Shown one piece after another: positions 1 to 58,788 of a DNA stretch of 64,000 nucleotides (position 1 is the first letter of the stretch; each line of letters opens with the position of its first letter). The translations under genes were made by a program, and so were the position numbers. The notes under the pieces are model-generated. The model was given only the letters and a program-made list of their open reading frames with translations, was not told the DNA's origin and searched no databases. This stretch comes from Rhodovarius crocodyli (lineage in GTDB: Bacteria > Pseudomonadota > Alphaproteobacteria > Acetobacterales > Acetobacteraceae): assembly GCA_945901085.1 (NCBI GenBank), contig CAMDJV010000017.1, positions 1-64,000 on the forward strand. Direction: 5' to 3'.

Positions 1-254
1 GGGAAAAGTCCCGGCCGGCCGCTCGCCGGCGGCTCGAAGCGCAGCGCGCTGCCAAGCGCCGCCGCATCGGCCTCCACGATCACCAGATCCGCCTCGCCGG
101 CGCGGTGTTTTGCCGCGGTGGCGCGCAATTGGCCGGCGGTGGAGAAATGCAGAAAGCCGTCGCGCCGGTCATCTTCGCTGCCGGTATAGGCCCCGGCCTT
201 TTCGGCGGCCGCCCAATCGGTGCGGCGCACAAGGGTGTAGATATGGCGTTCCAT
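1..254 (-). CDS. DUF952 family protein (partial, 3' end outside window)
   Basis: This is the N-terminal part of a DUF952 protein, read from the ATG at 254 and running off the window edge after about 84 codons. The translation starts MERHIYTLVRRTDW and contains the family's typical GFLHFSTAGQL stretch and the leucine/valine-rich segment after it. DUF952 proteins are small (about 110-120 residues), cytoplasmic, and have no firmly established function. An AAGG-type ribosome binding site lies just before the ATG. Only 8 bp separate it from the stop codon of the hydrolase at 263-694, so it could be co-transcribed with the phage-like cassette. I regard it as a host gene because it has no phage association that I know of; in many alphaproteobacteria it sits near pyrD, which would lie outside this window. 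Confidence 0.85.
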   Translation of the reverse strand, partial: MERHIYTLVRRTDWAAAEKAGAYTGSEDDRRDGFLHFSTAGQLRATAAKHRAGEADLVIVEADAAALGSALRFEPPASGRPGLF

Positions 255-262
255 GCCGCCTT

Positions 263-694
263 TCACGCCGCCAGGCGATAGAGCGCAAGCCCCCCGGCCT
301 CGGCCAGCGGCATGCGGCCCACCGCCCAGCCCGGCAGGCTTTGGGCCTTGTGCCAATGGGTGGCGCCCGGCGCCATATCGGGCAGGGCGCCGGCCAGGGC
401 ACGGGCCGCCACCCGGCGGCACATGGCCAGATGGGCATTCTCCGGCCCCGCCCCCCAGGCCGCGCCGCCGGGGTGCCAGCAGCCGAACTGGAAGGGAGCG
501 CGGCAGACCGCGACGATCATCGCCGGGCCATCCTGGGCCAGCGTCCCTTGGGCAAAGCGCAGCCGGGCCTCATCGCAGGCCATGGCCATGCGGGCGCGGC
601 GCAGCACGAGGGCGGCCAGCGCCTCCACGCCGCGCAGCGCGCAGCCCGCGGCCTCGGCATGCAGGGTGCGGGCGAGAATCTCGGTGGGGTTCAT
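263..694 (-). CDS. SleB-type cell wall hydrolase (lysis gene of particle cassette)
   Basis: A 143-residue protein of the SleB cell wall hydrolase family. Family features visible are the N-terminal ARTLHAEAAG segment with the putative catalytic glutamate, followed by a helix GVEALAALVLRRAR and the FQFGCWHP motif near residue 70, which matches the FSCW-N signature of the family. Such enzymes cleave peptidoglycan; phages and gene transfer agents use them for release or entry. There is no signal peptide, so export would need a holin-like partner, and the gene upstream (691-984) encodes a small membrane protein that could fill this role. The start ATG overlaps the stop of that gene as ATGA, indicating translational coupling. 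It is the last gene of the cassette before the host DUF952 gene. Confidence 0.8.
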   Translation of the reverse strand: MNPTEILARTLHAEAAGCALRGVEALAALVLRRARMAMACDEARLRFAQGTLAQDGPAMIVAVCRAPFQFGCWHPGGAAWGAGPENAHLAMCRRVAARALAGALPDMAPGATHWHKAQSLPGWAVGRMPLAEAGGLALYRLAA

Positions 695-984
695 CGGCGG
701 GTGGCTTCCTCGAGTTTTTCTTCGATACGGATGAGGTGATCGGTGATGCGCTGATCCACGCCGCGCATGAGCGAGAGCGGCACGTAGCTGCGCGCCACCT
801 CCAGCTTGAAGGCGGCCAATTCATCGCGGGTGCGGGCCAGCCCATCGGTCTGCCGCAGGTCGCCGCGCTCGATGCGCCGGTCCAATTCGCGCCGGATGCC
901 ATGCAGCATGCAGAACAGCACGATGAGCATTTTGGTCTGCAACACCATGACGATCAGGGCTGGGGGGATTTCGGGGGAATTCAT
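691..984 (-). CDS. small membrane-anchored protein, holin/spanin candidate
   Basis: A 97-residue protein with one hydrophobic segment at about residues 8-28 (PALIVMVLQTKMLIVLFCML) followed by a charged, probably helical C-terminal part that ends in a glutamate/lysine-rich coiled-coil-like stretch. I do not recognise a family. Its position between the large terminase and a cell wall hydrolase, and its coupling to the hydrolase by an ATGA overlap, suggest a lysis role such as a holin or a spanin-like factor, as found after the terminase genes of T7-like phages. That role is inferred from size, topology and neighbours only. The frame is intact and codon use resembles the neighbouring genes. Confidence 0.65.
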   Translation of the reverse strand: MNSPEIPPALIVMVLQTKMLIVLFCMLHGIRRELDRRIERGDLRQTDGLARTRDELAAFKLEVARSYVPLSLMRGVDQRITDHLIRIEEKLEEATRR

Positions 985-1021
985 GTTAAGCTTCTCCAGT
1001 CAGGGCCGGGGGCCTTGAGCG

Positions 1022-1312
1022 ATGCCGGGGGGCTTTGGGGTGAATTGGAACGAGCCTTATCTTGAAACCTGCTGCCGCTCGGCGCTGCACCGGCTTTTGC
1101 TGGTGGCGGCGCTGGGGCGGCCGGATGGCCTGAAGGATGGGCCATGCCTGGCGAGGCTGGCCGGCATGGGCTTGGCCGCGCCCAGGGCGGATGGGCGATG
1201 GGAGATCACCGCCCTCGGCCAGGCGCGCCATGGCGAGTTGGTCAATCCCCACCGCGCCAGGAAGGCGGGCGGGGCGGCGGCGGCAGGCGGGGCAGGCGCA
1301 CCGGCTCGCTGA
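1022..1312 (+). CDS. possible small winged-helix-like protein, antisense to cassette
   Basis: A 96-residue frame on the strand opposite to the cassette, filling the 257-bp gap between the large terminase and the small membrane protein. The middle part (residues about 10-75, ending in WEITALGQARHGELV) looks like the end of a small helix-turn-helix protein of the type often annotated as hypothetical in alphaproteobacterial phages. The last part is an alanine/glycine-rich tail that overlaps the 3' end of the terminase gene by 71 bp in antisense. The start could be the ATG at 1022 or the GTG at 1040. The opposite orientation is odd, and no clear ribosome binding site is present, so this is a tentative call. 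Confidence 0.4.
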   Translation: MPGGFGVNWNEPYLETCCRSALHRLLLVAALGRPDGLKDGPCLARLAGMGLAAPRADGRWEITALGQARHGELVNPHRARKAGGAAAAGGAGAPAR

Positions 1313-2678
1313 GGATCAGCCCGGCGATCGCATCGAGCGCGTCATCGCGCGCCGCCTTATCCTCGGGCCGCCATTCGGCCATTTCATCGGGCAGCGGCCC
1401 GGCCATCACCCGCTCATGTGCGAGCAGCCGCCGTGCGGCCAGCAGCGGGTCGAGGGCGGCGAGGATGCGCTCATGCTTGGCGCGGCGGCTGACATGCTCG
1501 CGCACATGGCAGGCGACCCGCGCCTGGGCGAGGGCGCGGCGCAGCATGGCGGGCAGGAACTTGCCGATGCCATTGGTCTCGACATGCACGGCGGGCAAAT
1601 GCAGCTCCGCGGCGATGGCGGCCACCCGGTTGCATTGCTGGGTTGCGCTGTCCTCGGCCTGGTTCGGGTCATGCGTCAGCCAGGTGAGGCTATGCAGGTA
1701 GTAATGGCCCTCGGCATCGGTATAGGCGGCGGCCAGGACGGAGCCATCGCCACCATCGGGCCGGCCGAAGGCGGGGTCCCAGAAGCCACCGCCTGAGACC
1801 ATGCGCCGGCCCATCAGATGCAGCTGCGCTAGGCCATTGGCCTCGCGGTAATCGGGCTCGGCGCGGTAATGGATGATCAGGGCCGGGTCGAGGCGCAGAT
1901 GGGCATCGCGCACCGCGCGCAGCTGCATCTGCCGGGCGAAATGCAGCGGGCCCACCCGCAGCCGCAGCGCCTCGATGCTGGGGGCTGGGAAGCGCTCGGG
2001 CCAGGCGCTGCGGCCTTGGCTGTCGAGCAGCGGCATGGCCAGGCGGTGATAGCCCGCCAGCAGCGGCTCATCGGCGATGCGGTAGATGCTCTGCGTGGTG
2101 TGCGGCGTGCCGACGAAGATTTGCGTGCCACCGGGCACGAGCACGAATTCGCACTCGGCCAGGCGCTCGCGCATATCTTCGCGCTTGGCCTGGGTGTCGC
2201 AATTGCCGGCGACCTCGACATCATCGCAGATGATCATCTCGGCCCGCGCGCCGGTGATATTGCCGGTGAGCCCCTGCGCCAGCATCGAGGGGTCGCGCAG
2301 CACGCCGCGGCGGGCCACGGTGAAGCGATCGGCGGCCCAGGCATCTTCGCCATCGGGCAGCAAATGCTCGCAGAGCGGGTGGCGCTCGATGATGCGCCGA
2401 ACCTGGCTGACCATCTTGCCGGCCAACGCCTGATCGGCCGCCAGCACCAAAATCCGCGCCTCGGGGTTGCGCTGCAGCCACCAGGCACAAAACAGCCCCA
2501 CCAGGGAGGATTTGCCCGAGCCGCGAAAGGCCATCAGCAGCAGCCGATGATCGCCCGCCGCCACCCTCGTATCGCACCAGCGCGCGATGCGGCGGTGATG
2601 TGCGGGCGTGCCCATGCCCTGCGTCTCATTCCAGACCCAGACGAATTCAATGAAGTCACTCTTGGGCTTCGGTGTCAT
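1242..2678 (-). CDS. phage terminase large subunit (T7 gp19-like)
   Basis: A 478-residue DNA-packaging motor. The N-terminal ATPase domain has a Walker A motif FRGSGKSS at residues 51-58 and a Walker B motif MIICDD at about 148-153. The C-terminal nuclease domain shows FWDPAFG near residue 300, HVETNGIG near 360 and a late aspartate pair in KAARDDALDAI near 445, the acidic residues expected for RNase H-fold terminase nucleases. The enzyme threads DNA into procapsids through the portal and cuts it. The start ATG at 2678 was chosen because the upstream extension of the frame is antisense to the tail fibre gene; GGAG lies about 10 bp before it. It overlaps the TerS candidate by 23 bp. All key motifs are intact, so packaging capability seems preserved. 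Confidence 0.92.
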   Translation of the reverse strand: MTPKPKSDFIEFVWVWNETQGMGTPAHHRRIARWCDTRVAAGDHRLLLMAFRGSGKSSLVGLFCAWWLQRNPEARILVLAADQALAGKMVSQVRRIIERHPLCEHLLPDGEDAWAADRFTVARRGVLRDPSMLAQGLTGNITGARAEMIICDDVEVAGNCDTQAKREDMRERLAECEFVLVPGGTQIFVGTPHTTQSIYRIADEPLLAGYHRLAMPLLDSQGRSAWPERFPAPSIEALRLRVGPLHFARQMQLRAVRDAHLRLDPALIIHYRAEPDYREANGLAQLHLMGRRMVSGGGFWDPAFGRPDGGDGSVLAAAYTDAEGHYYLHSLTWLTHDPNQAEDSATQQCNRVAAIAAELHLPAVHVETNGIGKFLPAMLRRALAQARVACHVREHVSRRAKHERILAALDPLLAARRLLAHERVMAGPLPDEMAEWRPEDKAARDDALDAIAGLILSEPVRLPRLPPPPRPPSWRGGD

Positions 2679-2970
2679 CCGATGTGATCTCCGGTCTGTC
2701 ACCCGCCAGCGCGCGGCGGGCATGGGTGAGCATGGCGGTGTGCTGGTCCTGGTTGTTCTGAGCGGTGCCTCCATCGAGTTTGAGCAGCGCGTCGATATGG
2801 GTGATGGCGGCGCGGGCTGCGGTGTGGCGGGCGAGGAAGGCCCGGGCGTGATCGGGGTCCTGGGATGCGATATCGGCATGCAGGAAGGCGAGGTATTCGG
2901 CGAAGACGTGACGGGCCTGGGCGGCGATATCGACACCCAGGCCCTTTTGCCTGCGGCGGCGGGGGAGCAT
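2656..2970 (-). CDS. TerS candidate (small terminase-like protein)
   Basis: A 104-residue, mostly helical protein with an arginine/lysine-rich start (MLPRRRRQKG) and an acidic C-terminus. I cannot assign it to a family by motif. Its size and its position immediately upstream of, and overlapping, the large terminase match the small terminase subunit of T7-like phages (gp18), which recognises DNA and regulates the packaging motor. The overlap of 23 bp with the terminase gene implies translational coupling. It begins 7 bp after the stop of the tail fibre gene. In a domesticated particle, relaxed TerS specificity would lead to packaging of host DNA, so this protein is worth testing; the function given here is positional inference. 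Confidence 0.6.
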   Translation of the reverse strand: MLPRRRRQKGLGVDIAAQARHVFAEYLAFLHADIASQDPDHARAFLARHTAARAAITHIDALLKLDGGTAQNNQDQHTAMLTHARRALAGDRPEITSDDTEAQE

Positions 2971-2977
2971 GCGCCGC

Positions 2978-5353
2978 CTAGACCCGAGGTTTTACGGCGC
3001 GGACATACAGCGTGCCGGCATCGATGGTGATGCTGCCGCCGCTGATGTTTTGCGCGGTGACACGCAGTTGATCGGCGCCGGCGGTGCCGCCCACAGCGGC
3101 GTGGAAGATCACGCCGCCATTCTGGAAGCCGGCGGTCTTGGCAAAACTCGCATTGACAAAATCGCCCTGGCGCAGGCCTGGCAGCGTCACGTCGCGCGTG
3201 GCGGTGGCATTGGCGGCCAGGGCGGGTATCGTCCAGCCGGTATCGGTGGCGGTGTATTCGCGCACACCCCAGCGGCGGCTGCCACCGAAGAGCACCGTGG
3301 GGGCATAGATGGCGGGGGTGTAGAGCCGGAGCGCCGTGATCACCGCGCTGGGCGAACCGCCACGCACGCCGATCAGCGCGAAGCGCGCATCTCCATGCAG
3401 GGTGACACGTTGCAGCTGGTTGACGGCATAGCCACCGGAGAGGCTGTCCAGATTGGCATTGCCCTCCCACCACATGGTGGGCGAGCTGACCCAGAGCGCG
3501 TTCATATTGGAGAAGAGCAGCGATGAGGTGACGCCCAGCACATTCTCCGATGCATCGAATTGCTGGATGACGGGGCGCAATTCGCTGCCCTCTGCGGCGA
3601 TGAAGAACTCCTTGCATTGCGCGCAATCCACCACGAAGCCCAGGGCGCGCGAGGTGGGGATGCCGATGCTCTCGGCATTGAGGATGAAGTTGTTAAGGCC
3701 GGCAAAGCATAAGCCATCCAGGGTGGTGGGCGCGCCCGCGGGGTTGCCGGAGAGCACGGCCATGCCTTCAAAGCCCACCCCGCCCGGACCATCGATGGTC
3801 TGGCGGAAGGCGCGGGTGCGGATATTGGCGGCCTCGGCGATCAGCCGGGGCGTGGCATGCGCGGCTGCGGCCTGGTGCAGCGACAGGACGCTCGCCCCGG
3901 CGCGGGTCGCGCCATTGGGGTAATGCACGCCATTGCCGGTGAAGCCATAGGTGCCGGTATAGCCGACCTCATAGAGGCAATCATTCGCGCCGCCGGTGTG
4001 GCGCGCCACATATTCGCTGCATTGCTCCATGCGGATGGAGCGCGCGGTGATGCAGCGCGCATCGGCCACATCGACCAGGAAGGGGATGGCATCCACGCTG
4101 CCCGGGGTGCCATGGCGCTGCAATTCGAAGGCGGGGCCGAGGAAGAGGTGCTGATTGTGCCGGTCATAGCCGCCATCGGCGCAGGAGAAGCGCACGCCAA
4201 AGCGGCCGATGGTAGGGTTCACCCCCGAGGCCACGGCGAAATGCCCACCCAGATAGGTGATGGAATTGTTCCAGCCGGCGGCGCTGCCGGTGCGCACATC
4301 GAGGCCGATCTTGTTATTGGCGATGCGGCCCAGATGCAGGGTGCTATCTTCAAAGCCGCGCTGGTCGCCCAGGCTGCGCAGGCCAATTGTGAAGCCCTCG
4401 GCCTGCAAAATCTCGACATGGCTGGCATCGAGGTTGCGCAGCACAATGCCGATATCGGCCTCGTCGGACCAGTCGGACTGGCTGGCGCGCAACACCCGCA
4501 AGCCCTCATAGCGGCGATTGGCATTGCGTACCTCGCCGCCGCTGCCCAGGGTGAGCGCCGCCTGGCCATCCGGCCCGGCATAGAGGATGACCCCGCGCAT
4601 GGTCAGCCCCGCCGCATCGCCTGGCAGGTTGAGCGCCATGGTGGTGCGATGGGTGCCCTCACCGATGAAGAGGTGCTTGCCGCTGGCCGCGGCGGCATTC
4701 ATGGCCGCCTGCAGGGCCAGGCCATCATCGGTGGCGCCATTGCCGGTGGAGCCGAAATCGCGGGCCGACAGGGTCTCGGAGAATTTATCCTCGGCACTGC
4801 GCGGCACCGCGCCGGGATAGGCGCTGGTGATGGTGCCACCCTGGGGGAAGACAGTGATATCGCCCGTTGCATCGAAGCCCAAAATCCGGTTGGCGCGGGC
4901 TTCGGCCAGGGGCAGCACGGTGGCGGCGTATTCCGAGGGGTCAAGGCGGATCGTCCCGCTCAACCCATCCTGTGCCTCCTGCAGGGCGGCCACCTGATAA
5001 TCGAGTTCGTCGTTCAGGATGCGCGCGCGCAGCACGCCATTCTGCTGGAAATCGGTGTTGCGTAGGATCTTCAGATGGCGGCGGAGGGTGATGCGCGTTC
5101 CAGCCCCGGGCGGCTGGTCGAACAGCACCTGGCCCCCTTCGGAGAGCCCGGCGCCGGTGATGGAAAAGCCGGTGAAGACCAGCAACCCGTTCAGCCGCAC
5201 CTCGAGGTCGGCGCTGCTGAAGATCGGGAAGGGGTAGGTGAAGGCGGTTTGCACGCCATTCGCGGCGTATTGGATGCGCGGCGCGACATCGCCGTTGCGG
5301 CTGTGGTCGGCCAGGGTCGGCTCGGCTCCTGAGGGATTGCGGTTGGCGGGCAA
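2978..5353 (-). CDS. tail fibre/spike protein with T7-like anchor and pectate-lyase-like domain
   Basis: A 791-residue structural protein. Residues about 26-130 (RIQYAANGVQTAFTYPFPIF and the following beta-rich part up to a helix ending LDYQVAALQEAQDG) match the N-terminal particle-binding domain of T7 gp17-type tail fibres. Residues about 198-225 (DFGSTGNGATDDGLALQ) are the start of a pectate-lyase-3/right-handed beta-helix domain typical of phage tail spikes, followed by a long beta-rich region. The protein would bind, and perhaps degrade, surface polysaccharide. The frame opens at a TTG at 5353 with no strong ribosome binding site; an internal start is possible. Longer than T7 gp17 (553 residues) because of the beta-helix. 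The array of 80-bp repeats lies immediately upstream. Confidence 0.85.
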   Translation of the reverse strand: MPANRNPSGAEPTLADHSRNGDVAPRIQYAANGVQTAFTYPFPIFSSADLEVRLNGLLVFTGFSITGAGLSEGGQVLFDQPPGAGTRITLRRHLKILRNTDFQQNGVLRARILNDELDYQVAALQEAQDGLSGTIRLDPSEYAATVLPLAEARANRILGFDATGDITVFPQGGTITSAYPGAVPRSAEDKFSETLSARDFGSTGNGATDDGLALQAAMNAAAASGKHLFIGEGTHRTTMALNLPGDAAGLTMRGVILYAGPDGQAALTLGSGGEVRNANRRYEGLRVLRASQSDWSDEADIGIVLRNLDASHVEILQAEGFTIGLRSLGDQRGFEDSTLHLGRIANNKIGLDVRTGSAAGWNNSITYLGGHFAVASGVNPTIGRFGVRFSCADGGYDRHNQHLFLGPAFELQRHGTPGSVDAIPFLVDVADARCITARSIRMEQCSEYVARHTGGANDCLYEVGYTGTYGFTGNGVHYPNGATRAGASVLSLHQAAAAHATPRLIAEAANIRTRAFRQTIDGPGGVGFEGMAVLSGNPAGAPTTLDGLCFAGLNNFILNAESIGIPTSRALGFVVDCAQCKEFFIAAEGSELRPVIQQFDASENVLGVTSSLLFSNMNALWVSSPTMWWEGNANLDSLSGGYAVNQLQRVTLHGDARFALIGVRGGSPSAVITALRLYTPAIYAPTVLFGGSRRWGVREYTATDTGWTIPALAANATATRDVTLPGLRQGDFVNASFAKTAGFQNGGVIFHAAVGGTAGADQLRVTAQNISGGSITIDAGTLYVRAVKPRV

Positions 5354-5385
5354 TGGCCCGGCCCATGCCCGAAGTTGCGGATCAA

Positions 5386-5627
5386 AAAGGGGGGTCTAGG
5401 GGGGACCCTGTCCCCCCTTCGCCCGGCGCGGGAGGGTTGGCGTGGCGGCTGCCGTGCCGGGCGACAAAGGGGGGTCTAGGGGGGACCCTGTCCCCCCTTC
5501 GCCCGGCGCGGGAGGGTTGGCTTGGCGGCTGCCGCGCCGGGCGACAAAAAGGGGGGTCTAGGGGGGACCCTGTCCCCCCTTCGCCCGGCGCGGGAGGGTT
5601 GGCGTGGCGGCTGCCGCGCCGGGCGAC
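5386..5627. repeat. three tandem 80-bp units, each with two hairpins
   Basis: Three head-to-tail copies: 5386-5465, 5466-5547 (two extra A) and 5548-5627. Copies differ at only a few bases. Each unit contains a G/C-tract hairpin with arms GGGGGGAC and GTCCCCCC around CCT, and a second hairpin with 12-bp arms CGCCCGGCGCGG and CCGCGCCGGGCG; copy 1 carries a single T in the second arm that still allows a G-U pair. Directly after the array a 14-bp element GCGACAAATTGCTA occurs twice. The array lies in the gap between the gp14-like gene and the tail fibre gene, in which nothing else was found. Confidence 0.95.
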
Positions 5628-5649
5628 AAATTGCTAATGCGACAAATTG

Positions 5650-6090
5650 CTACTGCAACAAATTGTTCAGCGCGCCGCCAAAACTCCGCCCTGCACGGAT
5701 AATGCTTGTGAGATTGGCTTCAGGGTTCAGCAGCGAGGCGCGGCCGGAAGCAAGCTGGGCGCGAAACACCGTATCGGAGGCAGTGGCCGCCGCCGCCGCA
5801 TCGGAGGTCAGCCCGTTGGTGATGGCTGCGGCAGAGCCATCATCGGGCGCCACACCCGATGAGGCGAGCCTCGCGCGGGTTGAGGCGATGTTGCGCGCGA
5901 GCTGCAATTGGCGGTTCCTGACCTCGGCCTGCTGCTGGGCGATGAGCTGGTTCTGCCGCTGCACCTCCACCGCCTGACTGGCCTCGGCCTGGGCGAGCTG
6001 GGTGGCGCGTTGGGCCTGCCGGGCGCGCTGTTGCGCGTAGATGGTGGCACCCGAGCCCAGCAGGGTGCCGATGGAAGAGAGTGCGGCCAT
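5650..6090 (-). CDS. internal virion-like protein (T7 gp14 position)
   Basis: A 146-residue protein with a glycine-rich hydrophobic N-terminus (ALSSIGTLLGSGATIYAQQ), a long glutamine/alanine-rich coiled coil at about residues 20-75, and a conserved-looking stretch RARLASSGVAPDDGSA followed by an alanine-rich helix. This pattern is characteristic of podovirus internal core proteins of the gp14 type, which form part of the ejection apparatus in the outer membrane. T7 gp14 is somewhat longer (196 residues). The gene overlaps the stop of the gp12-like gene by one base (TGATG). The large core proteins gp15 and gp16 that should follow it are missing, so this is the only ejection-type protein in the cassette. 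Assignment is by architecture and position. Confidence 0.65.
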   Translation of the reverse strand: MAALSSIGTLLGSGATIYAQQRARQAQRATQLAQAEASQAVEVQRQNQLIAQQQAEVRNRQLQLARNIASTRARLASSGVAPDDGSAAAITNGLTSDAAAAATASDTVFRAQLASGRASLLNPEANLTSIIRAGRSFGGALNNLLQ

Positions 6091-7970
6091 CAGGTGGTGA
6101 TCCTCATCTCGGTAGTGATGGAAAGCAGGGTGAGCGGCAGGGGCGTGTCATCGGCGATGCGCCACAGCGGCTGGGTGGCGTCGCGCCGCCAGCCCAGGGC
6201 GCGCAGCCGGGCATCGCCAGTGAAGAGCACCGGTGGCGCATCGAGCAGGGCGGTATCGAAGCGGCGGAAGGGCAAGCTCTGCGGCCCGCGGCCAAGATCC
6301 ACCGCCAGGCTCGCGGTATTGAGCAGCCGGAAGGTGATCGAAATCAGCCGCAGCGGCGTGGCGCGCATGCCCATCGCGCCCCCCAGATCAACCGGCAAGG
6401 GTTCGATCACATGGCTGAAGCGCAGCCCGATCTGCACCCTATGCGCCGGCTCATCGAGGGTGATGGTGCCGGCATTGACCAGCTTATCCTGCACCGGCGC
6501 GCCATCGGCCAGCACGCCCACTTCCTGGCCTTCCAGATGCGCAAGCCCGCTCCACGCCGCCGCCGCATTGGCCATGCTGCCGGTCAATGCTGCATCCAGC
6601 GCCAAGGTGTCATCGAAGCGCTCCAGCCGCTGTCTGCCCGCGCGTTCGACCACGGCCCAGATGGTGCCCTCAATATCGGCCAAGGCGCGGAACATCCCAT
6701 TGGTCTGTTGGCCCGACCAGGCCAGCACCTGCTCGGTGCGGTAGAGGGTGAGGGTGGCGAGGCTGCCATCTTCCATCGCCACATGCAGCAGCCGGCGCAG
6801 CTGGTCATAGGCCAAGCTGATGGGCGTGTGCATGAGATGGGCCGCCACCAGCGCCAGGTCATTGGCCTGATAGGCCTGCTGGATATCGGTATAGGTGAAT
6901 TCATAAATGCCGCGGCCGCTGCGGGCGGCGAAGATCGTGCTGCCATCCACATCCACCGGCTGCACCAGCCGCGCCACCGGGCTGCCGATGCGCGTCTGCC
7001 GGGTGAGCTGGATGGAGGATGGCGTGAGCGGGTCGCCGCTCACCATCCATTCGCCGCCCGAGGTGAAGACCTGCAGGTTGCGGCCGGAGAAGACGCCACG
7101 AATGGCATTCACCTGGTCGCTCATCAGGCCAAAGCTGATCGCCTCATCATCCAGCCCGGTGCCGGTGGAGAAATTATACAGATCACCAGTGCGCGACAGC
7201 CATAGCCGGTTCGGCAGATCACGCGAGCCGCCGATCACCAGCCTGTCCTGATGAAAACAGACGCAGACCGGCCAGCCGCGCAGCGTGCTGAGCGCGCCTT
7301 CCTCCCAATCAAAGGTGGCGGTGGTGCCGGGTAGCGTGTCCAGCACCTGGCCGCTCACCTGGGTTGTGGAGAGCACGGCGGCGATATCCACCCGCTGGCC
7401 ACCAATGCGCAGCCTTGTATGGGCATGCTCGGCGCTGAAGACGGGGGCCGAGGCGGTGATGGTGATGCTGCCCGTCACCGCGCTGGGGGTGAGGGATATA
7501 TCGAGGGCGGCGAAGCGATAGGTCGGCACCTCGGTGAATGGCCAATTGCCGATCGTCCAACTGCTATGGCTGCTGCGGGTGATGCGCAGCGGCGCCAGAT
7601 CAGGGTGGCAGATCAGCAGCGTATCGGCGCTCTGGGTATGGGCCAATTGCGGCAGCATCGCCTCCGTCCAGGGGGCGGCCAGCGAGGTGACCTCCGCATC
7701 GCCCATGAAGACCTGCAGCCGGGCGTGGCTGAGCACCAGCAGATAGGTCTGCTCGGTGTTGAACTCAAAGCCGATCAGCCTCGCCGGTCCGGGCAGGGTG
7801 GCGATATGGCGCAGCCCCGGCCGGCGGGTGAGCCCGCCGGTTGATTGGATGAAGACATTGCGCAAGAGCCCCGCCCCATTGGCATAGGCCCGCGTGTCCG
7901 GGCGGCCCAGCATGTCGGGCGAGAGTTCGCCGGCGGTGAAGTTCGATTTGAAGGCGCGGCTGGCGGACAT
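6090..7970 (-). CDS. tail tubular protein B-like nozzle protein (T7 gp12-like)
   Basis: A 626-residue beta-rich protein. It begins with the typical NFTAGELSPDMLGRPDTRAY...GLLRNVFIQSTGGLTRRPG signature of podovirus gp12-family nozzle proteins and contains PNRLWLSRTGDLYNF near residue 265, the hallmark of the central beta-propeller. These proteins form the hexameric tail nozzle that closes the DNA channel and binds the fibres. T7 gp12 is 794 residues, so this is a shorter family member. The start ATG at 7970 is preferred over an upstream TTG at 7976 because GAGGGG sits six bases before it. It follows the gp11-like gene after 2 bp, and its stop shares a base with the start of the gp14-like gene, all consistent with one operon. 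Confidence 0.85.
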   Translation of the reverse strand: MSASRAFKSNFTAGELSPDMLGRPDTRAYANGAGLLRNVFIQSTGGLTRRPGLRHIATLPGPARLIGFEFNTEQTYLLVLSHARLQVFMGDAEVTSLAAPWTEAMLPQLAHTQSADTLLICHPDLAPLRITRSSHSSWTIGNWPFTEVPTYRFAALDISLTPSAVTGSITITASAPVFSAEHAHTRLRIGGQRVDIAAVLSTTQVSGQVLDTLPGTTATFDWEEGALSTLRGWPVCVCFHQDRLVIGGSRDLPNRLWLSRTGDLYNFSTGTGLDDEAISFGLMSDQVNAIRGVFSGRNLQVFTSGGEWMVSGDPLTPSSIQLTRQTRIGSPVARLVQPVDVDGSTIFAARSGRGIYEFTYTDIQQAYQANDLALVAAHLMHTPISLAYDQLRRLLHVAMEDGSLATLTLYRTEQVLAWSGQQTNGMFRALADIEGTIWAVVERAGRQRLERFDDTLALDAALTGSMANAAAAWSGLAHLEGQEVGVLADGAPVQDKLVNAGTITLDEPAHRVQIGLRFSHVIEPLPVDLGGAMGMRATPLRLISITFRLLNTASLAVDLGRGPQSLPFRRFDTALLDAPPVLFTGDARLRALGWRRDATQPLWRIADDTPLPLTLLSITTEMRITT

Positions 7971-7972
7971 GC

Positions 7973-8542
7973 TCAACCCCTCACCGCGATCAGCGGAAAG
8001 TCGCGCATGGCGCGCGGCGTGGCCTGGGCGCTATCGGCATGGCGGGCGGCGCGCAGCTCGGCCTCGGCCTGGCTGAACAGCAGCTGCGCGCGTGAGGTTG
8101 CCTCGGTCAGCGGTATGCAGAATTCAGCGGCGAGGCGGGTGGCCAGGGCTGCGGCGAAGAAGGGCGGGAAGGCCGCCTCATCGGGCCGAAAAACATAGGC
8201 CAGCACCACCTGCTCGGCATCGCAATGCAGCCGCTCCTCCAAGATGCGATAGCGCAAGCCCTGGCTGGAGCCGGGGCTGCCGGCCGAGAGCACGCGCAAA
8301 AACCCCGCGGGCAGTTGGAAGGCGTATTGAAAATCGGCGGTGGGCACCGCGGCCAGGCGCGGCAGGCTCTCCTGGCCCGTGGCGAAGGACCAGGGGTGCA
8401 GCGAGAGCATGGCATCACGCGTGGCGGGGTAGAGATTGGCGGCCACCTCAGCCTCGGCGGTGCCTTCGTCGAGCGAGGCGATGGGCTGGGCGCCGATCTT
8501 GATCAGCGCGCGCGAGCACAGAGCGAGGGCGGTGAGGGCCAT
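7973..8542 (-). CDS. tail tubular protein A-like adaptor (T7 gp11-like)
   Basis: A 189-residue protein starting MALTALALCSRALIKIGAQPIASLDEGTAEAE, the characteristic opening of the gp11/gp4 head-tail adaptor family of short-tailed phages (helical, with the LGA/IGA-P-I motif). It would form the dodecameric ring joining the portal to the nozzle. T7 gp11 has 196 residues, nearly the same length. The ATG at 8542 is preceded by AGGAG at ideal spacing; the upstream open frame is non-coding. A strong hairpin lies 30 bp upstream, between this gene and the capsid gene. Downstream it is tightly packed with the gp12-like gene, and the two presumably are translated in stoichiometric amounts. Confidence 0.88.
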   Translation of the reverse strand: MALTALALCSRALIKIGAQPIASLDEGTAEAEVAANLYPATRDAMLSLHPWSFATGQESLPRLAAVPTADFQYAFQLPAGFLRVLSAGSPGSSQGLRYRILEERLHCDAEQVVLAYVFRPDEAAFPPFFAAALATRLAAEFCIPLTEATSRAQLLFSQAEAELRAARHADSAQATPRAMRDFPLIAVRG

Positions 8543-8571
8543 CGGAAACTCCTGACAGGGGAAAGGGGAAG

Positions 8572-8601
8572 GCGCCCCCGGGGCGGGTGGCCCCGGGGCG
8601 C
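8572..8601 (-). terminator. strong hairpin after capsid gene, possible partial terminator
   Basis: On the minus strand GCGCCCCGGGG pairs with CCCCGGGGGCGC (one bulged G) around a 7-base loop, followed by a pyrimidine-rich CTTCCCCTTTCCCC run. There is no classical U tract. It sits in the 70-bp gap between capsid and gp11-like genes, the position of the T-phi terminator in phage T7, so it may raise capsid transcript over the downstream tail genes or stabilise its 3' end. Confidence 0.5.
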
Positions 8602-8612
8602 GCTGGCAGGCG

Positions 8613-9449
8613 TTATTCCTTAGCGCGCATCCGCACAGCACCTTGGCTGTCGATCAGGCTCGCACCCTGGCTCATCATTGAATTGACGAAGAAGGCGGCG
8701 CGGTCACCATGCCAGGAGACATCGGTGATGATGTCCGAGGCGGCGGCATGGCCCACCGCCGTCTTGTGGTAGAAATAGCAGTAGCGCAGCGCGCCGATCT
8801 TGGTGAGGCCCGAATGCGGCATCCAGGTCGCCCCCAGCCATTGCTTGGCCTGGGTCATGCCCTTCCAGGGCAGGTTGTCCGGGCCAATATAATCGGCATT
8901 GGCGAATTCAGGGATCGCCAGCAGCTCGCTCCACTGCTTCCAGCCGACGACGGCGTAGCGATGGCCGTCATCGGGCACATCGGCCGCACCCAGCGCCTGG
9001 AAGGCGAGCAGGACCTTGGCCTTGGTCAGCCCGTCATTATCGGTCTCGCCCGTGCCGGTGCCCAGCGCCTCATTGGTGGAGGTGTCGAGGGCGGCGATGA
9101 TCAGCTCATCGCTTTTGCGGCCCAGCGCATAGGCGCCGGCATTGGCAACGACGGCGCGCTCGTCGAGGTTGGTTTTCAACTCGTCGAATTTGTCGATCCA
9201 GTCGCCGGCGTAATGATCCTGCAAAAAGCATTCGACGCTGGTGTGGTCGAGGTTCATCACCGGCACGATGCCATTGCGTGACTTTGCTGAGGCGGTGCCG
9301 CTGCCGATCTTCTGGAACACCGTGGAGGCGCCGCGAATATCGGTCTTCGAGCGCACGGTGGTGCGCAGGCGGCTGCCCTGGCGCTGATAGGCCTCCTGCA
9401 CTTCAACCTGGTACTGCTTGACGAAAGCCTGGTCGATCGATGTGGACAC
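8613..9449 (-). CDS. major capsid protein (T7 gp10-like)
   Basis: A 278-residue capsid protein. The order between scaffold and tail adaptor and the sequence character (N-terminal helix SIDQAFVKQYQVEVQEAYQRQGSRLR, then GAYALGRKSDELIIAAL, and a C-terminal WHGDRAAFFVNSMMSQGASLIDSQGAVRMRAKE) fit podovirus HK97-fold major capsid proteins of the kind found in T7-like and related alphaproteobacterial phages. T7 gp10A has 345 residues. The start is a GTG at 9449 with AAAGGAG six bases upstream; the longer frame to 9533 is proline/arginine-rich and not convincing. A 300-bp gene-free gap separates it from the scaffold gene, leaving room for an extra promoter or processing site. Confidence 0.85.
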   Translation of the reverse strand: MSTSIDQAFVKQYQVEVQEAYQRQGSRLRTTVRSKTDIRGASTVFQKIGSGTASAKSRNGIVPVMNLDHTSVECFLQDHYAGDWIDKFDELKTNLDERAVVANAGAYALGRKSDELIIAALDTSTNEALGTGTGETDNDGLTKAKVLLAFQALGAADVPDDGHRYAVVGWKQWSELLAIPEFANADYIGPDNLPWKGMTQAKQWLGATWMPHSGLTKIGALRYCYFYHKTAVGHAAASDIITDVSWHGDRAAFFVNSMMSQGASLIDSQGAVRMRAKE

Positions 9450-9749
9450 CGGCTTCTCCTTTGCTGTGTGGCGTGGTGGGGGGGGTGGCCTGCGGCGCGG
9501 TTGGCCCTGGCGGGGCCGCGTCTTGGCCGGCATCGCGCGCCCAGGGGGCTGGGTTATGCGCGAGCAATAGGGGGTGCCCGCCGGCGCGAAGGGGATGGCG
9601 CGCTGGCGGGCACCGGGGGCGAGCCCGGTAGAGGGAGGGGTACCAGGCTCAAGCCCCGCGGCCAGGCGCGACCCGCGCTGCCTGGCCGTCTGGGGGGCTG
9701 AGCGTCTGATGCGGCCGGGGCTGGATCAGCCCCGCATCGCGATCTTCGT
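9450..9749. other. 300-bp gene-free gap between scaffold and capsid genes
   Basis: No convincing frame is seen on either strand. It contains two modest inverted repeats, ACCGGG/CCCGGT at about 9614-9634 and GCCAGGC/GCCTGGC at about 9660-9690. I see no consensus promoter. The unusual length in an otherwise tightly packed operon suggests a regulatory or RNA-processing role for the capsid transcript, but nothing here proves it. Confidence 0.5.
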
Positions 9750-10475
9750 TCAGCCATTCACCAATTTGCGGAAGCCTTCCGTTACCTTCTGCACGAAGGC
9801 CGGCTCGCGCTTTTGCCAGTAGCGCGGGTCGCGCATCATCTGGCGCAGCTCCGCCTCGCTGGGGGCGCTGAGGGGGGCGCTGTCGCGGGCCATGCTGGGC
9901 TCGGTTCCCGCCATCATCCGCTCCATGGCCAGCACCCCTTCGAAGGTGGTCGAGAGCGCCTCGAAGACCGGCTTTGGCAAATGCTGGCCGCCCCAGGCGG
10001 TGAGTTGCTTGGCGATGCGGCGGAAGCGCTCCTCGCTGCCATAATGCGTCACCAGCCGTTCCACCTGGCGCTCGGCCTCATAGGCCTGGGCGGCCTCGCC
10101 GATCAGCGGCAGCAGCCGCTCGGCGGCGAGGTCATAGACCAGCTGCGCCTGCGCCTGGGTGAAGCCAGCCTTATGCAGCATGTCATTGACCTCAGGGTCG
10201 ATGCCCAAGCCTTGCGGTGCATTCACCTGATAATCATTGGCCGATGGCGGTATGCCCATGGCGTCACGCCAGAGCGCCTGCTCCTCGGGTGAGGCGGCGG
10301 GGCCTGGGGGAATGATTTTCTGCGATAGACGCTTCTCCAACTCGCTATAGCTCTTCAGCAGCGCATCCACCCGGGTGGCGCCGGTGGCGCTGTCCCAGAA
10401 TTTTTCCGGCACATCGCTGGGGCGTGCCTGGGCGGGGGCGGCGGTCACGCCGGGGTCGAGGAGGCTGTCGGTCAT
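9750..10475 (-). CDS. capsid assembly scaffolding protein (T7 gp9-like)
   Basis: A 241-residue hydrophilic, helix-rich protein. The N-terminal region is proline/alanine-rich and then reads PEKFWDSATGATRVDALLKSYSELEKRLS (about residues 23-51), the motif that opens many podovirus scaffolding proteins; the C-terminus ends in a short helical region (PAFVQKVTEGFRKLVNG) of the type that binds the coat protein. The protein would direct procapsid assembly inside the shell and leave before packaging. T7 gp9 has 307 residues. It starts 27 bp after the portal stop and lies upstream of the capsid gene, the same order as T7 genes 8-9-10. Confidence 0.85.
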   Translation of the reverse strand: MTDSLLDPGVTAAPAQARPSDVPEKFWDSATGATRVDALLKSYSELEKRLSQKIIPPGPAASPEEQALWRDAMGIPPSANDYQVNAPQGLGIDPEVNDMLHKAGFTQAQAQLVYDLAAERLLPLIGEAAQAYEAERQVERLVTHYGSEERFRRIAKQLTAWGGQHLPKPVFEALSTTFEGVLAMERMMAGTEPSMARDSAPLSAPSEAELRQMMRDPRYWQKREPAFVQKVTEGFRKLVNG

Positions 10476-10502
10476 GGGGGGCTCCGGATACGGGTTGCGG
10501 GT

Positions 10503-11963
10503 TCAGGCTGCGGCGGGGGCAGAGGTAGGCGCAGAGGTAGGCGCAGAGGTAGGGGCTAGGGGCACCAGCACTTCGGCCGGGGCACCCAGGGTATGGGCGA
10601 GCCATCTTGTGGCGGCGGCAGCATCCACCTGCGCCGCCGCAGCGCCGCCGATCTTCGCCACGGCGTCGAGAAAGAGCAGGGTATTGGCGGCATCCGCGCG
10701 GCCCTGCACCCGGGCGAGCGGGCTTTCATAGCGCAGCCGCGCGCCATGGCCGTCGAGCAGCACGGGCGGCACCTCGCCGCGGCGGGCCAGAATGGCGAGG
10801 CTGCGGGCGATCATCGGCGTCAGCAATTCGGTCTGCAGCCGGCCATAGGTGGCGCCGAGCAGACGGGCGGTCTGGGCGCTGCGCTCGAGCACCTCGGTCG
10901 CCGTCATGCGGGCATCCTGTGGCGTGTTCAGCCGGTCGGCCAGCAGGGCGGAGCGGATGCGGGCGCGCAAATCATTGAGCACCAGCTGCGAGACATCGAA
11001 ATTGCCAGGTGCCGCGAGGGGGGTCAGGCCCGCACTGCCCGGCGCCTTGGGAATGATGGCGCCGGGGATGAGTTCGATGGTGGCGGGGTTGAGCACCCCA
11101 TCATCCTCAGCCAGCCAAATGCCGGTGCAGGCGATGGAGGCGTTTTTGAGCACCAGTTCGACCACGCGATTGGCGGTGCGAATATCCGGCAGCGCCTTGC
11201 CCACCGGGCCGCGGCCATAGATCTCGCCAGGCGCCTTCAGCCAGCGAAAGGCGATGAAGGGGCTCTCGGCAAAGCCACCCTGCGCCAGCAGCATGGGCGT
11301 ATCGCCATCCAGCACGGCGGCGTAGCGGGTGCCATTGCTGTCGGGCCAGACCGCCTCGACCACGCGATAGGTCTGGCCGCCGCCATCATGCTTTACCATG
11401 GCCTCGGGCAGTTCGGCGAAGGGAAAGCGGCGCAGAATCTCGGCCATATCCTGCCGGGTTTCGCGGAAGATCGTGGTGAGCCGGCCGGAGGGGCCCTCCT
11501 CCAGCACCGCCGACATGATGGGAATGGCGGTGAAGCGCAGCGCCGAGGCCTCACCCAGCGGTGCCTCCTCCACCATGATCACCCCGGTGCCGGTGATGAC
11601 CAGATCGAGAAAGGCCTGGTGCATCTCGATGGCGAAATTCGAGCGGTCAAAGGCGGTTTGCAGGATGCGGGTGGTGCCCTCCAGCGCAAAGGCCATGGCC
11701 GGGCCGGCCTCGGTTTCGGCCATGGCATCGGCGGGGGCTAGGCCAAACCAGCGCGACCAGGGCGGGGTAAGCTCGGCCAGCAGCGAGGCGGCCAATTGCT
11801 CGGCCGCGTCGGCGGCGGTGGCATCATAGAGGCTGGCCTGCAGATCATGGCGCGGCAGCACATGGTCATAGGCGTCACGCCAGCTGCTTTCATGCGGGCG
11901 GCGGCGGTCGAGAGCGCGGGCCTGGCGGGCCAGAATTTCACCGGGGGAAATGGCCTGGGTCAT
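10503..11963 (-). CDS. head-tail connector / portal protein (T7 gp8-like)
   Basis: A 486-residue portal protein. The N-terminus (EILARQARALDRRRPHESSWRDAYDHVLPRHD) and the following LTPPWSRWFGLAPAD near residue 70 are characteristic of T7-type head-tail connecting proteins, as is the internal segment EIYGRGPVGKALPDIRTANRVVEL. T7 gp8 has 536 residues. The portal forms the dodecameric DNA entry channel and binds the terminase. The start ATG at 11963 is followed directly by a good MTQAISPGEIL sequence; the longer frame upstream overlaps the 73-aa gene and is discarded. The C-terminus ends in three copies of a four-residue APTS repeat encoded by a 12-bp tandem repeat (10,519-10,555), a likely slippage site. 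Confidence 0.92.
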   Translation of the reverse strand: MTQAISPGEILARQARALDRRRPHESSWRDAYDHVLPRHDLQASLYDATAADAAEQLAASLLAELTPPWSRWFGLAPADAMAETEAGPAMAFALEGTTRILQTAFDRSNFAIEMHQAFLDLVITGTGVIMVEEAPLGEASALRFTAIPIMSAVLEEGPSGRLTTIFRETRQDMAEILRRFPFAELPEAMVKHDGGGQTYRVVEAVWPDSNGTRYAAVLDGDTPMLLAQGGFAESPFIAFRWLKAPGEIYGRGPVGKALPDIRTANRVVELVLKNASIACTGIWLAEDDGVLNPATIELIPGAIIPKAPGSAGLTPLAAPGNFDVSQLVLNDLRARIRSALLADRLNTPQDARMTATEVLERSAQTARLLGATYGRLQTELLTPMIARSLAILARRGEVPPVLLDGHGARLRYESPLARVQGRADAANTLLFLDAVAKIGGAAAAQVDAAAATRWLAHTLGAPAEVLVPLAPTSAPTSAPTSAPAAA

Positions 11964-11967
11964 GGCG

Positions 11968-12189
11968 TTATTCCCCCAGCAGCGATTTGCGGGGCAGGCC
12001 GGTCGGCCGCGGGTCCAGCACACCACGGGGCGATGTGACGATGGTGCCCTGGATACCGCGCCGGGCGCGATTTCGGGTCTCGCTTGCCGTGGCCTGGACC
12101 ACATCGGCCGCGGCCGGTGCGATGGGCTGCGGCGGGGGCACTGGCGGGTCGACACGAACCGGCTTTGGCGCTTTCAAAAGGCTGCCCAT
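11968..12189 (-). CDS. small proline-rich phage protein with conserved RK-LLGE end
   Basis: A 73-residue protein: MGSLLKAPKP start, a proline-rich linker at residues 14-26, an arginine-rich helix (ETRNRARRG) and the ending GTIVTSPRGVLDP...RKSLLGE. Small proteins with this layout and the same TSxRGVL and RKTLLGE ending occur immediately upstream of portal genes in many alphaproteobacterial T7-like phages; the function is not known to me. Four bases separate its stop from the portal start. It lies in the same reading frame as the upstream gene without an intervening stop codon, but has its own ATG preceded by GGAGAGA-like purines, so it is probably also translated independently. Confidence 0.75.
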   Translation of the reverse strand: MGSLLKAPKPVRVDPPVPPPQPIAPAAADVVQATASETRNRARRGIQGTIVTSPRGVLDPRPTGLPRKSLLGE

Positions 12190-12768
12190 CGGCGTCTCTC
12201 TCCTCGGCATCGGGGACGAAAAAAAGGCCAGCACCCGCGTGAGCGGGCCTGGCCGGGTGTGATGGTGATGGTGATGGCGTAGCGGGATCGATCCGGGCGC
12301 AACTCGCCCGTTGATGAGATTGTGATAGCCCAGGCCCGCACCGATTGTCAAGCTTTTTTTCCTTTTATGCGGTTGTGCCTCAAGTGCGCGATACAACCCA
12401 TTCGGCGTGAGCGCGAAGGGGGCTGCATCCCCCAGCAGGGCCCGGCAGAGGCCCACGCAATTCATCGGCAGCATGCTGGGCAGCAGACAGGGGCGGGCCC
12501 GCCCGGCTGGGAATGGCCCCAAGGGGTTGAGCCCCGCGCGGCGGTAAAACGCCGGAAGATCGAAATCCGCCGGCACATCCACCCGGCCCAGCACCAGGCA
12601 GCCGGCGAGCGGGTCCATCACCAGCCAGCCCGAATCATCGTGCAAAGCGGCGAAGCAATGCCGAAAGCCAGGCCGCAGCAGGCGCTGCCAGGCCATATCC
12701 GCCCCGCCCCCGAAGATGATCCAAACCTGCTGGCGCTGCGCCGTGGCGCGGTGGGAGGGGCGAATCAT
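11968..12768 (-). CDS. conserved hypothetical cassette protein; frame reads through into the next gene
   Basis: The frame starts at an ATG at 12,768 (MIRPSHRATAQRQQVW) that overlaps the upstream stop as ATGA. The first 145 or so residues look like a real globular protein with FGGGADMAWQRLLRPGFRHCFAAL, a DPLAGCLVLGRVDVP strand region and MNCVGLCRALLGDAAPFALTP, a tail I associate with papain-like or unassigned small phage proteins. No stop codon follows: the frame passes through the promoter-like sequence and the terminator, encodes six consecutive histidines, and enters the 73-aa gene in phase, giving 266 residues in total. Either the natural stop was lost and a fusion protein is made, or the terminator and independent start limit it. 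Function unknown. Confidence 0.6.
   Translation of the reverse strand: MIRPSHRATAQRQQVWIIFGGGADMAWQRLLRPGFRHCFAALHDDSGWLVMDPLAGCLVLGRVDVPADFDLPAFYRRAGLNPLGPFPAGRARPCLLPSMLPMNCVGLCRALLGDAAPFALTPNGLYRALEAQPHKRKKSLTIGAGLGYHNLINGRVAPGSIPLRHHHHHHTRPGPLTRVLAFFSSPMPRRETPMGSLLKAPKPVRVDPPVPPPQPIAPAAADVVQATASETRNRARRGIQGTIVTSPRGVLDPRPTGLPRKSLLGE
12219..12254 (-). terminator. hairpin plus seven-T run inside the operon
   Basis: On the minus strand GGCCAG and CCCGC pair with GCGGG and CTGGCC (one small asymmetric bulge) around a TCAC loop, followed by TTTTTTT. This is a typical intrinsic terminator placed just upstream of the 73-aa gene and downstream of a promoter-like sequence, so it may act as an attenuator ahead of the structural genes. 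Confidence 0.6.
12322..12351 (-). promoter_or_regulatory. sigma70-like promoter ahead of the structural genes
   Basis: On the minus strand a perfect TTGACA (12,351-12,346) is followed after 18 bp by TATCAC (12,327-12,322). The sequence lies in the 3' part of the conserved hypothetical frame, about 70 bp before the intrinsic terminator. The -35 box is a full match, the -10 box matches four of six positions. Confidence 0.45.
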
Positions 12769-13175
12769 GGCCGCAGGCTGGTGACCGTGGCAAAGCCCGG
12801 ACCCACCACTATCCCTTTGATTCGCAGAGGCCATTCCAGCCGCGACAAGGCCTCGCGCCACAGCGCGGCATCACCACGCTCGCTCGGCGCATGCAGGTTG
12901 GGTGAATAGCCCCGTTCCCCCCAGCGGCGCAGCACCCGGCCATGGCTGAGGTCGATACGGCGTTGGCGATAAAGCCGGTCGAGGCAGCGCACCACATCAT
13001 CGGGCTCGCAGGGGCGGATGGCGCTGCCGCGGCCAGCCACGATGCGCGCACCATCTTGCCGCGCAACCAGGGCGGCCATGGTCCAAAACCACGCCTCCTC
13101 GGCGCTGCGAAAGGGTTCGGATTGGGTGATGGAATGCAGCACGGGGCTATGCTGTGGGCGGGGGGCGATGGCCAT
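12765..13175 (-). CDS. conserved hypothetical protein, first gene of particle cassette
   Basis: A 136-residue basic protein without membrane segments. It contains FRSAEEAWFWTMAALVARQDGARIV (about residues 22-46), RPCEPDDVVRCLDRLYRQRRID (about 54-75) and a C-terminal LEWPLRIKGIV. I recall similar proteins annotated as hypothetical in many Rhodospirillales genomes, often near phage-like genes, but know no function; the CEPxDV and YRQRRI parts suggest a small regulatory or nucleic-acid-binding fold. It is the first gene after the SOS box and therefore the likely immediate-early product of the cassette. The ATG at 13,175 follows AGAGGA by nine bases, and its stop overlaps the next start (ATGA). 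Confidence 0.7.
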   Translation of the reverse strand: MAIAPRPQHSPVLHSITQSEPFRSAEEAWFWTMAALVARQDGARIVAGRGSAIRPCEPDDVVRCLDRLYRQRRIDLSHGRVLRRWGERGYSPNLHAPSERGDAALWREALSRLEWPLRIKGIVVGPGFATVTSLRP

Positions 13176-13195
13176 GGGGGGATGTCCTCTTCCTG

Positions 13196-13210
13196 GAACG
13201 AAACCAGAAC
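13196..13210 (-). promoter_or_regulatory. SOS (LexA) box controlling the particle cassette
   Basis: On the minus strand the sequence is GTTC-TGGTTTC-GTTC, a perfect match to the alphaproteobacterial LexA box GTTC-N7-GTTC. It lies 21 bp upstream of the first cassette gene. A weak promoter (TTGCAA, 17 bp, TTAAGT) would place the box over the -10/+1 region, where LexA binding would block transcription. Confidence 0.75.
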
Positions 13211-13297
13211 TTAAACTTTAGGTTGTATGCATTGCAAGAGCGAAAGCGTGTTATTTTCCTATTGCATCCAGAATCAACACCTAGGATAATCACCCTC

Positions 13298-13945
13298 ATG
13301 CGACATGATGACGTCTGGCGGGCGATCGACGCCATCGCCGCTGAAAATGGCCTCTCGGCGTCCGGCCTCGCCCGACGCTCAGGGCTCGACCCGACCGCCT
13401 TCAACCCATCCAAACGGATAGGGCCCGACGGCCGCGCCCGGTGGCCCTCCACCGAGAGTGTGGCCAAGGTGCTCGCCGCCACCGGCACCGGGGTGGATAG
13501 TTTTGCCGCCCTGGTCTCCGGCCAGGCGCCCAATATGGCGCGCCCACGCGGCGGCTCCGCCCGGCGCATCCCGCTCATCGGGCTGGCCCAGGCCGGTGGT
13601 GATGGCTTCTTCGATGATGCGGGCTTTCCGGTCGGTGGCAGCTGGGATGAGATTTCCGGCCCCGATGTGGCCGATCAGAACGCCTATGCCCTGGAAATTT
13701 CAGGCGAATCCATGGAGCCTGTGTTCCGTGATGGCGATATGGTCATCGTCTCGCCAGGCGCGCCGGTGCGCCGGGGGGACCGTGTGGTGGTGCGCACCAA
13801 GCTCGGCGAGGTGATGGCCAAGCAATTGATCCGCCAAAGCGCCAAGCGGATTGAACTGCAAAGCCTCAACCCAGCCCATCCCAATTACAATTTCGATCTG
13901 TCGGAGGTGGCCTGGGTTCACCGCATCGTCTGGGCCAGCCAGTAA
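13298..13945 (+). CDS. XRE-family helix-turn-helix, S24 (LexA-fold) regulator
   Basis: A 215-residue repressor-like protein. Residues about 1-75 form an XRE-type DNA-binding domain (SASGLARRSGLDPTAFNPSKR at 20-40). Residues about 90-215 are an S24/LexA-fold domain with an AQAGG cleavage-type site near 98-101, catalytic serine in GESMEP (Ser138) and lysine in EVMAKQL (Lys175), so RecA-stimulated self-cleavage is possible. The N-terminus differs from LexA itself. Closely similar proteins with the DPTAFNxSKR signature are, as I recall, common chromosomal genes of Alphaproteobacteria, so it is probably a host gene, but its divergent position next to the cassette promoter makes it a candidate regulator. 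The ATG at 13,298 gives the family's usual start; the longer frame to 13,154 is rejected. Confidence 0.85.
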   Translation: MRHDDVWRAIDAIAAENGLSASGLARRSGLDPTAFNPSKRIGPDGRARWPSTESVAKVLAATGTGVDSFAALVSGQAPNMARPRGGSARRIPLIGLAQAGGDGFFDDAGFPVGGSWDEISGPDVADQNAYALEISGESMEPVFRDGDMVIVSPGAPVRRGDRVVVRTKLGEVMAKQLIRQSAKRIELQSLNPAHPNYNFDLSEVAWVHRIVWASQ

Positions 13946-21181: not shown

Positions 21182-21864
21182 GGCGCATAGCCCTTGGCTG
21201 CCATGGCCATGCCGCCAAACAGGCCAAAGCCGCGCTCGCGCCAGGCATGCACCGGGTCATCGCTGGCCAGCAGCTTGAAATCGCTCACGCAGCGCGCCCA
21301 TTGCAGGCTGCCCAGCACGATATAATCGGCATAATTGGGCACATCGCCGCCAATCCAGGCTTGCTTGGCCAGGATCATCCGCAGCGGTTGCAGCACCTTG
21401 CGAAAGGCCGGCAATTCCGCCTCGCGCCCGGCCTGCACCGCCTCCAGGCTCATCCCGAAGCGCGCCTCGCGGCTTTGCCGGAAATAGGCCTGATCATCCG
21501 GCCCCAGGCAGGCATGGATATCCAGCACCACCAGCCGGGCCAGGGCAGGGTGCAGCACGCCATCGGCCCATGCATTGATGAAGCGCACCGGCCCGGGCGC
21601 GCCGCCGAAGAGGCTCGGCCGGTCCGGATACTGCGCCTCCAGCCATTCGGCGATGGTCCATGAATCGCTCAGCACCGTATCGCCATCGACCAGCACCGGC
21701 ACCGAGGCCTGGCCGGAAAAGGCCAGCCGCTCCTTCTCGGTGAAGCGCCAGGGCGTGCCCTCCACCTCCAGGCCCTTATGGGCCAGGGCCAGGCGCGTGC
21801 GCCAGCAAAACGGGCTGAAGCGCTGCTCCGGATCGGCCCCGGCCAGTTCGTAAAGGGTTCTCAT
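21178..21864 (-). CDS. glutathione S-transferase family protein
   Basis: A 228-residue GST. The N-terminal thioredoxin-like domain contains FSPFCWRTRLALAHKGL (about residues 15-31), with the FCWR-type glutathione site, and the binding loop ASVPVLVDGD near 53-62 followed by LSDSWTIAEWLEAQYP. The helical C-terminal domain completes the fold. It likely conjugates glutathione to an electrophile or acts as an isomerase. The ATG at 21,864 (MRTLYELAG) is preferred over one three codons upstream. It is the first gene of the operon with the DsbA-family and cupin genes and is divergent from pobA, 75 bp away, so a shared promoter region is likely. Confidence 0.9.
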   Translation of the reverse strand: MRTLYELAGADPEQRFSPFCWRTRLALAHKGLEVEGTPWRFTEKERLAFSGQASVPVLVDGDTVLSDSWTIAEWLEAQYPDRPSLFGGAPGPVRFINAWADGVLHPALARLVVLDIHACLGPDDQAYFRQSREARFGMSLEAVQAGREAELPAFRKVLQPLRMILAKQAWIGGDVPNYADYIVLGSLQWARCVSDFKLLASDDPVHAWRERGFGLFGGMAMAAKGYAP

Positions 21865-58773: not shown

Positions 58774-58788
58774 GAACATAAGGCGAAC
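58774..58788 (-). promoter_or_regulatory. SOS (LexA) box of the imuA-imuB-dnaE2 operon
   Basis: On the minus strand GTTC-GCCTTAT-GTTC, a perfect GTTC-N7-GTTC box, 6 bp before the imuA ATG. It is the same class of site as at 13,196-13,210 and is the expected LexA target for this operon. Confidence 0.85.

Follow-up and report, generated by a model that had tools for sequence, protein, structure and literature searches.

The window analyzed here, a 64,000-nucleotide stretch, is the first 64 kb of contig CAMDJV010000017.1 of a 3.85-Mb Rhodovarius assembly (GCA_945901085.1), and its base 1 is a contig end. Profile HMM searches of its open reading frames demonstrated that positions 263–13,945 hold a T7-type head, short-tail, packaging and lysis cassette, preceded by a LexA box and a divergent S24 repressor gene. 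All frames of the cassette are open, and its GC content is like that of the rest of the window. The features and the evidence for each of them are listed in the table below.

Features of the T7-like cassette and its borders (positions in the 64,000-nucleotide window)
Position	Strand	Feature	Evidence
3..254	-	DUF952 gene, cut by the contig end; host flank	PF06108, E 5e-18
263..694	-	Endolysin-like cell wall hydrolase (Hydrolase_2/SleB type)	PF07486, E 3e-4, below the curated cut-off; phrog_938, E 1e-3
691..984	-	Small membrane-anchored protein ahead of the lysin (holin/spanin candidate)	phrog_29007, E 4e-19; conserved hydrophobic N-terminus and helical C-terminus in relatives; role inferred from place
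1242..2678	-	Large terminase (TerL), T7 type	phrog_38, E 4e-78; NF033889 equivalog, E 9e-124; Walker A GxGKS and acidic positions invariant in 14 relatives
2656..2970	-	Small-terminase candidate, about 100 aa, no DNA-binding domain recognised	phrog_31793, E 1e-7; same place before TerL in most loci
2978..5353	-	Tail fibre with T7-like N-terminal domain	phrog_1640, E 8e-26; conserved end to end in 40 loci
5650..6090	-	Protein at the gp14 position (internal virion protein candidate)	No HMM match; place, and 35–61% identity in relatives
6090..7976	-	gp12-like tail/nozzle protein	phrog_376, E 3e-147
7973..8542	-	gp11-like tail adaptor	phrog_394, E 9e-47
8613..9449	-	Major capsid protein	PF19821, E 1e-78; start set by alignment
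9750..10475	-	Scaffold, T7 type	PF05396, E 2e-15
10503..11963	-	Portal (head-tail connector)	PF12236, E 7e-121
11968..12192	-	About 70-aa phrog_831 protein just before the portal	phrog_831, E 1e-7; in frame with the gene before it in this window
12337..12768	-	About 145-aa protein with invariant His and Cys; papain-like hydrolase is a weak lead only	Class-wide alignment; AF2 model, pLDDT 83; no significant PDB match
12765..13175	-	First gene of the operon: new 136-aa protein family, candidate activator or antiterminator (function inferred)	No Pfam, NCBIfam or PDB relative; AF2 model all-helical, pLDDT 83
13196..13210	+	LexA (SOS) box GAACN7GAAC / GTTCN7GTTC	Exact match; 0.5 expected by chance in the whole window
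13298..13945	+	HTH plus S24 peptidase repressor, divergent from the operon	PF00717, E 9e-23; invariant Ser-Lys pair and Ala-Gly site in 15 relatives

The first-pass annotation had described this region as an SOS-controlled T7-like late-gene cassette between host genes, and these results confirmed that observation. Several details were corrected, however. The frame described as gp14-like is suggested to be gp14 only by its place, and the identity of the small-terminase candidate likewise rests on position. The S24 gene, which had been taken as a host-type flank, is a conserved member of the module, and the SOS box was located at the position given in the table. No integrase, RNA polymerase, replication gene or gp15/gp16-type ejection protein was recognized among the cassette frames, nor was an integrase, polymerase or replication gene recognized in the neighboring genes scanned, although the left side in this genome is limited by the contig end. 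The histidine kinase–response regulator (HK-RR) genes beyond S24 were not counted as part of the system, because their strong matches are limited to the own genus.

To determine whether the cassette is specific to one strain, a capsid search was performed in 299 genomes of the family Acetobacteraceae. The capsid gene was found in 78 of the 299 genomes and in 24 of 102 genera, nearly always as a single copy, whereas 221 genomes had no capsid match. Forty loci of up to 20 kb were fetched, and they showed the same order from S24 to the lysin, most of them complete. One locus (L044) lacks S24 and the first gene in the fetched stretch, and a few lack a recognizable lysin or small-terminase candidate. 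Stops inside the alignments cluster at gene ends, and the structural frames are thus open. DUF952 and/or pyrD lies downstream of TerL on the same strand in 31 of the 40 family loci and in several other families, with DUF952 often followed by pyrD, although Rhodovarius crocodyli has ABC-F and uvrC there. The site is therefore often, but not always, the same. The cassette is a conserved chromosomal set, not a strain-specific prophage.

The distribution was then examined across the class with a capsid profile. Of 387 alphaproteobacterial genomes, 91 gave a hit, about 64 of them strongly (E below 1e-50), in about 30 families with genomes of 0.9 to 7.3 Mb. Of 40 further loci, most show the same order at 54–67% capsid identity, with rearrangements in some of the smallest genomes, and eight that were chosen for weak or second capsid hits are T7-like prophages or mosaics. 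Genomes of about 0.9 Mb (coded G354, G453, G598, G658 and G532) keep the capsid gene, which is striking for reduced genomes; a study of gene transfer agents (GTAs) in endosymbionts (George et al., 2022; PMC9254644) may overlap with these small-genome carriers. No capsid relative was found in 72,556 plasmids.

In several families, portal and scaffold are not next to the capsid. A portal profile found a portal in 25 of 25 capsid-bearing class genomes tested, often at a large distance from the capsid (134 kb, 153 kb, 244 kb and 1.25 Mb) or on another contig. Most of these portals are single and open, but two genomes gave two pieces, and in one of them (G338, C2:1262470-1280784) the pieces are about 17 kb apart, so the gene seems interrupted by an insertion. 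The split is recurrent: one half consists of S24, the first gene, the His/Cys gene, portal and scaffold, and the other of capsid, tail, TerL and lysis genes. A prophage whose capsid and portal lie this far apart cannot transmit itself as one unit, and from the retention of both halves, nearly all intact, we infer that selection acts through the host. This dispersal was seen only in the families with split loci; the unsplit 13-kb cassette of Acetobacteraceae might itself fit into one capsid, and self-packaging is not excluded there.

A particle tree (capsid, gp11, gp12 and TerL) was compared with an RpoB tree of the same 28 genomes. The two trees share 12 of 25 splits (shuffled mean 0.2, maximum 3), with a Mantel r of 0.83, and of 0.90 within Acetobacteraceae, although low-support deep branches of the two trees disagree. 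The particle proteins evolve about 2.8 times faster than RpoB. dN/dS by a simple counting method was 0.08 for S24, 0.16 for capsid, 0.16 for portal, 0.18 for TerL, 0.19 for gp11, 0.24 for gp12, 0.25 for the fibre and 0.41 for the small-terminase candidate. These results indicate that the gene set is inherited with the chromosome and is under purifying selection.

The LexA box lies in the interval between S24 and the first gene, close before the latter, in 34 of the 40 family loci. Boxes also occur in the same interval in several other families, and before the capsid in some split loci. Two further exact LexA-type boxes are present elsewhere in the window, at 21846–21860 and 58774–58788. A conserved ATCCTAGG...CAATAGG element between the LexA box and S24 (window 13211–13297 and the S24 interval of relatives) is possibly the S24 operator. 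The Ser-Lys pair and the Ala-Gly site kept in S24 are those of self-cleaving repressors. SOS control is therefore likely on sequence evidence.

The 136-aa family encoded by the first gene tracks the system. It occurs in 46 of the 387 genomes, 41 of which have the capsid (P about 3e-33 if genomes were independent, which they are not), including 0.9-Mb genomes where it lies on another contig. The protein is predicted to form four helices, and its role as a regulator is inferred from its place. A fold search gave no significant match (best E 1.7), and a Q21 antiterminator at E 6.9 in that list is not evidence. The fold search for the His/Cys protein was equally negative (best E 1.1), and the papain-like names among its hits are not evidence either.

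Compared with isolated phages, the closest is Pelagibacter phage EXVC031P Hodr, a 34-kb T7-like phage with homologues of portal, scaffold, capsid, gp11 and gp12 in the same order but a capsid only 45% identical. In a capsid tree, the cassettes group apart from Hodr and most prophages, with two exceptions nested inside: a 5-kb human faecal scaffold and a mosaic second copy. The scaffold, an unverified “Bacteriophage sp.” record (MT838907; 54% capsid identity), lies next to a 1.6-Mb alphaproteobacterial genome and is probably host cassette DNA. One class genome (G059) holds a second, divergent element with a cassette-like capsid (about 50%) but a far more distant portal (30%), which is either a mosaic prophage with a cassette capsid or a diverged copy. 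Another genome (G047) that has the conserved cassette also carries a separate T7-like prophage (capsid about 36%), and this prophage possesses the gp15- and gp16-like ejection proteins that are missing from the cassette. In IMG/VR, 530 viral-contig relatives were found, many of them 12–13 kb long, and these look like the cassette called as a provirus.

Among described GTAs, the RcGTA-like agents (Rhodogtaviriformidae) are also structural, packaging and lysis genes kept as single-copy chromosomal genes in Alphaproteobacteria, with vertical descent, purifying selection and sometimes several loci, but they are siphovirus-like and have different marker families. The RcGTA marker PF13547 (the GTA TIM-barrel tail protein) was found in 40 of the 387 genomes, but neither in the window genome nor in any of the genomes with strong capsid hits, while a Caulobacter control was positive. 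A published survey found no RcGTA-like cluster in Acetobacterales, Azospirillales or Rhodospirillales (PMC6821227). BaGTA (Bartogtaviriformidae) is an independent domestication in Alphaproteobacteria with core-like conservation, described from one genus with an HK97-type capsid and next to a run-off replication origin (PMC9662315). FpGTA of Faecalibacterium, a gut Firmicute, is a proposed podovirus-like GTA encoded in two operons, for which packaging was observed (PMC12946183). A report of Bradyrhizobium particles with even host coverage (PMC10127595) could not be tied to this cassette.

The first-pass annotation had inferred a non-replicating, DNA damage-induced podovirus-type particle that may package host DNA, and that interpretation is largely supported. 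The conservation of the block in related genomes and its dN/dS, which had been named beforehand as checks, came out in its favor; the distribution is far wider than proposed, and the split loci add an argument that could not be made from the window alone. We consider the cassette to be a domesticated, vertically inherited podovirus-type particle system, domesticated independently of RcGTA, that works like a GTA, and this reading as a whole is held with fairly good confidence. In this view, LexA and probably the self-cleaving S24 repressor would keep the system off; on DNA damage, the first gene and then the head, short-tail, packaging and lysis genes would be expressed, capsids would be filled with host DNA by the T7-type terminase, the cell would lyse, and particles would adsorb to kin through the conserved fibre. 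The comparisons demonstrate domestication, conservation, gene content and the LexA box, whereas induction, particle production, random packaging of host DNA, its delivery and the role of the first gene are inferred. We are highly confident that the system is domesticated and kept for the host, and only moderately confident that it packages and transfers host DNA. The absence of gp15 and gp16 makes delivery uncertain.

A domesticated particle with another job, such as a PBSX-like killing or lysis particle, or one that packages DNA but cannot deliver it, is unlikely but remains possible. SOS control, the lysis genes and the missing ejection proteins would fit such a particle. However, the packaging motor is complete with invariant catalytic positions, and the fibre is conserved along its whole length with low dN/dS, which we infer is not expected of a weapon aimed at varying strains. 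An ordinary or recently decayed prophage, or repeated insertion of related phages at one hotspot, is very unlikely: although all structural genes are of phage origin and similar 12–13 kb blocks are listed as viral contigs, this reading is contradicted by the intact split loci and the host-congruent tree, and the single copy, the lack of a recognized integrase, the absence from plasmids and the distance to the closest phage capsids also count against it. A diverged RcGTA- or BaGTA-type agent, despite the same kind of gene content and inheritance pattern, is equally improbable given the absence of PF13547 from the window genome and all genomes with strong capsid hits, a TerL that is a T7 equivalog and a PF19821 capsid, whereas BaGTA is described with an HK97-type capsid.

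The cassette is thus a strong candidate for a short-tailed kind of GTA in many families of Alphaproteobacteria in which the RcGTA marker was not found. It is somewhat more likely than not that it represents a further independent GTA lineage, of T7 type: an SOS-induced particle kept for a very long time across alphaproteobacterial lineages that lack RcGTA, so that the two particles would divide the class between them. It might be the unidentified source of the particles with random 10-kb host DNA reported after mitomycin C treatment in Azospirillum lipoferum and strain B510, whose genes are not settled (PMC3899980). The finding also means that many 12–13 kb “viral” contigs in virus databases are probably host genes. 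A conserved podovirus-type particle in orders reported to have no RcGTA-like cluster, found in no strong carrier together with the RcGTA marker and apparently under SOS control, would mean that such particles were domesticated independently and then kept, and it would make the question of what selects for GTAs (repair, exchange or lysis) testable with a second, unrelated system.
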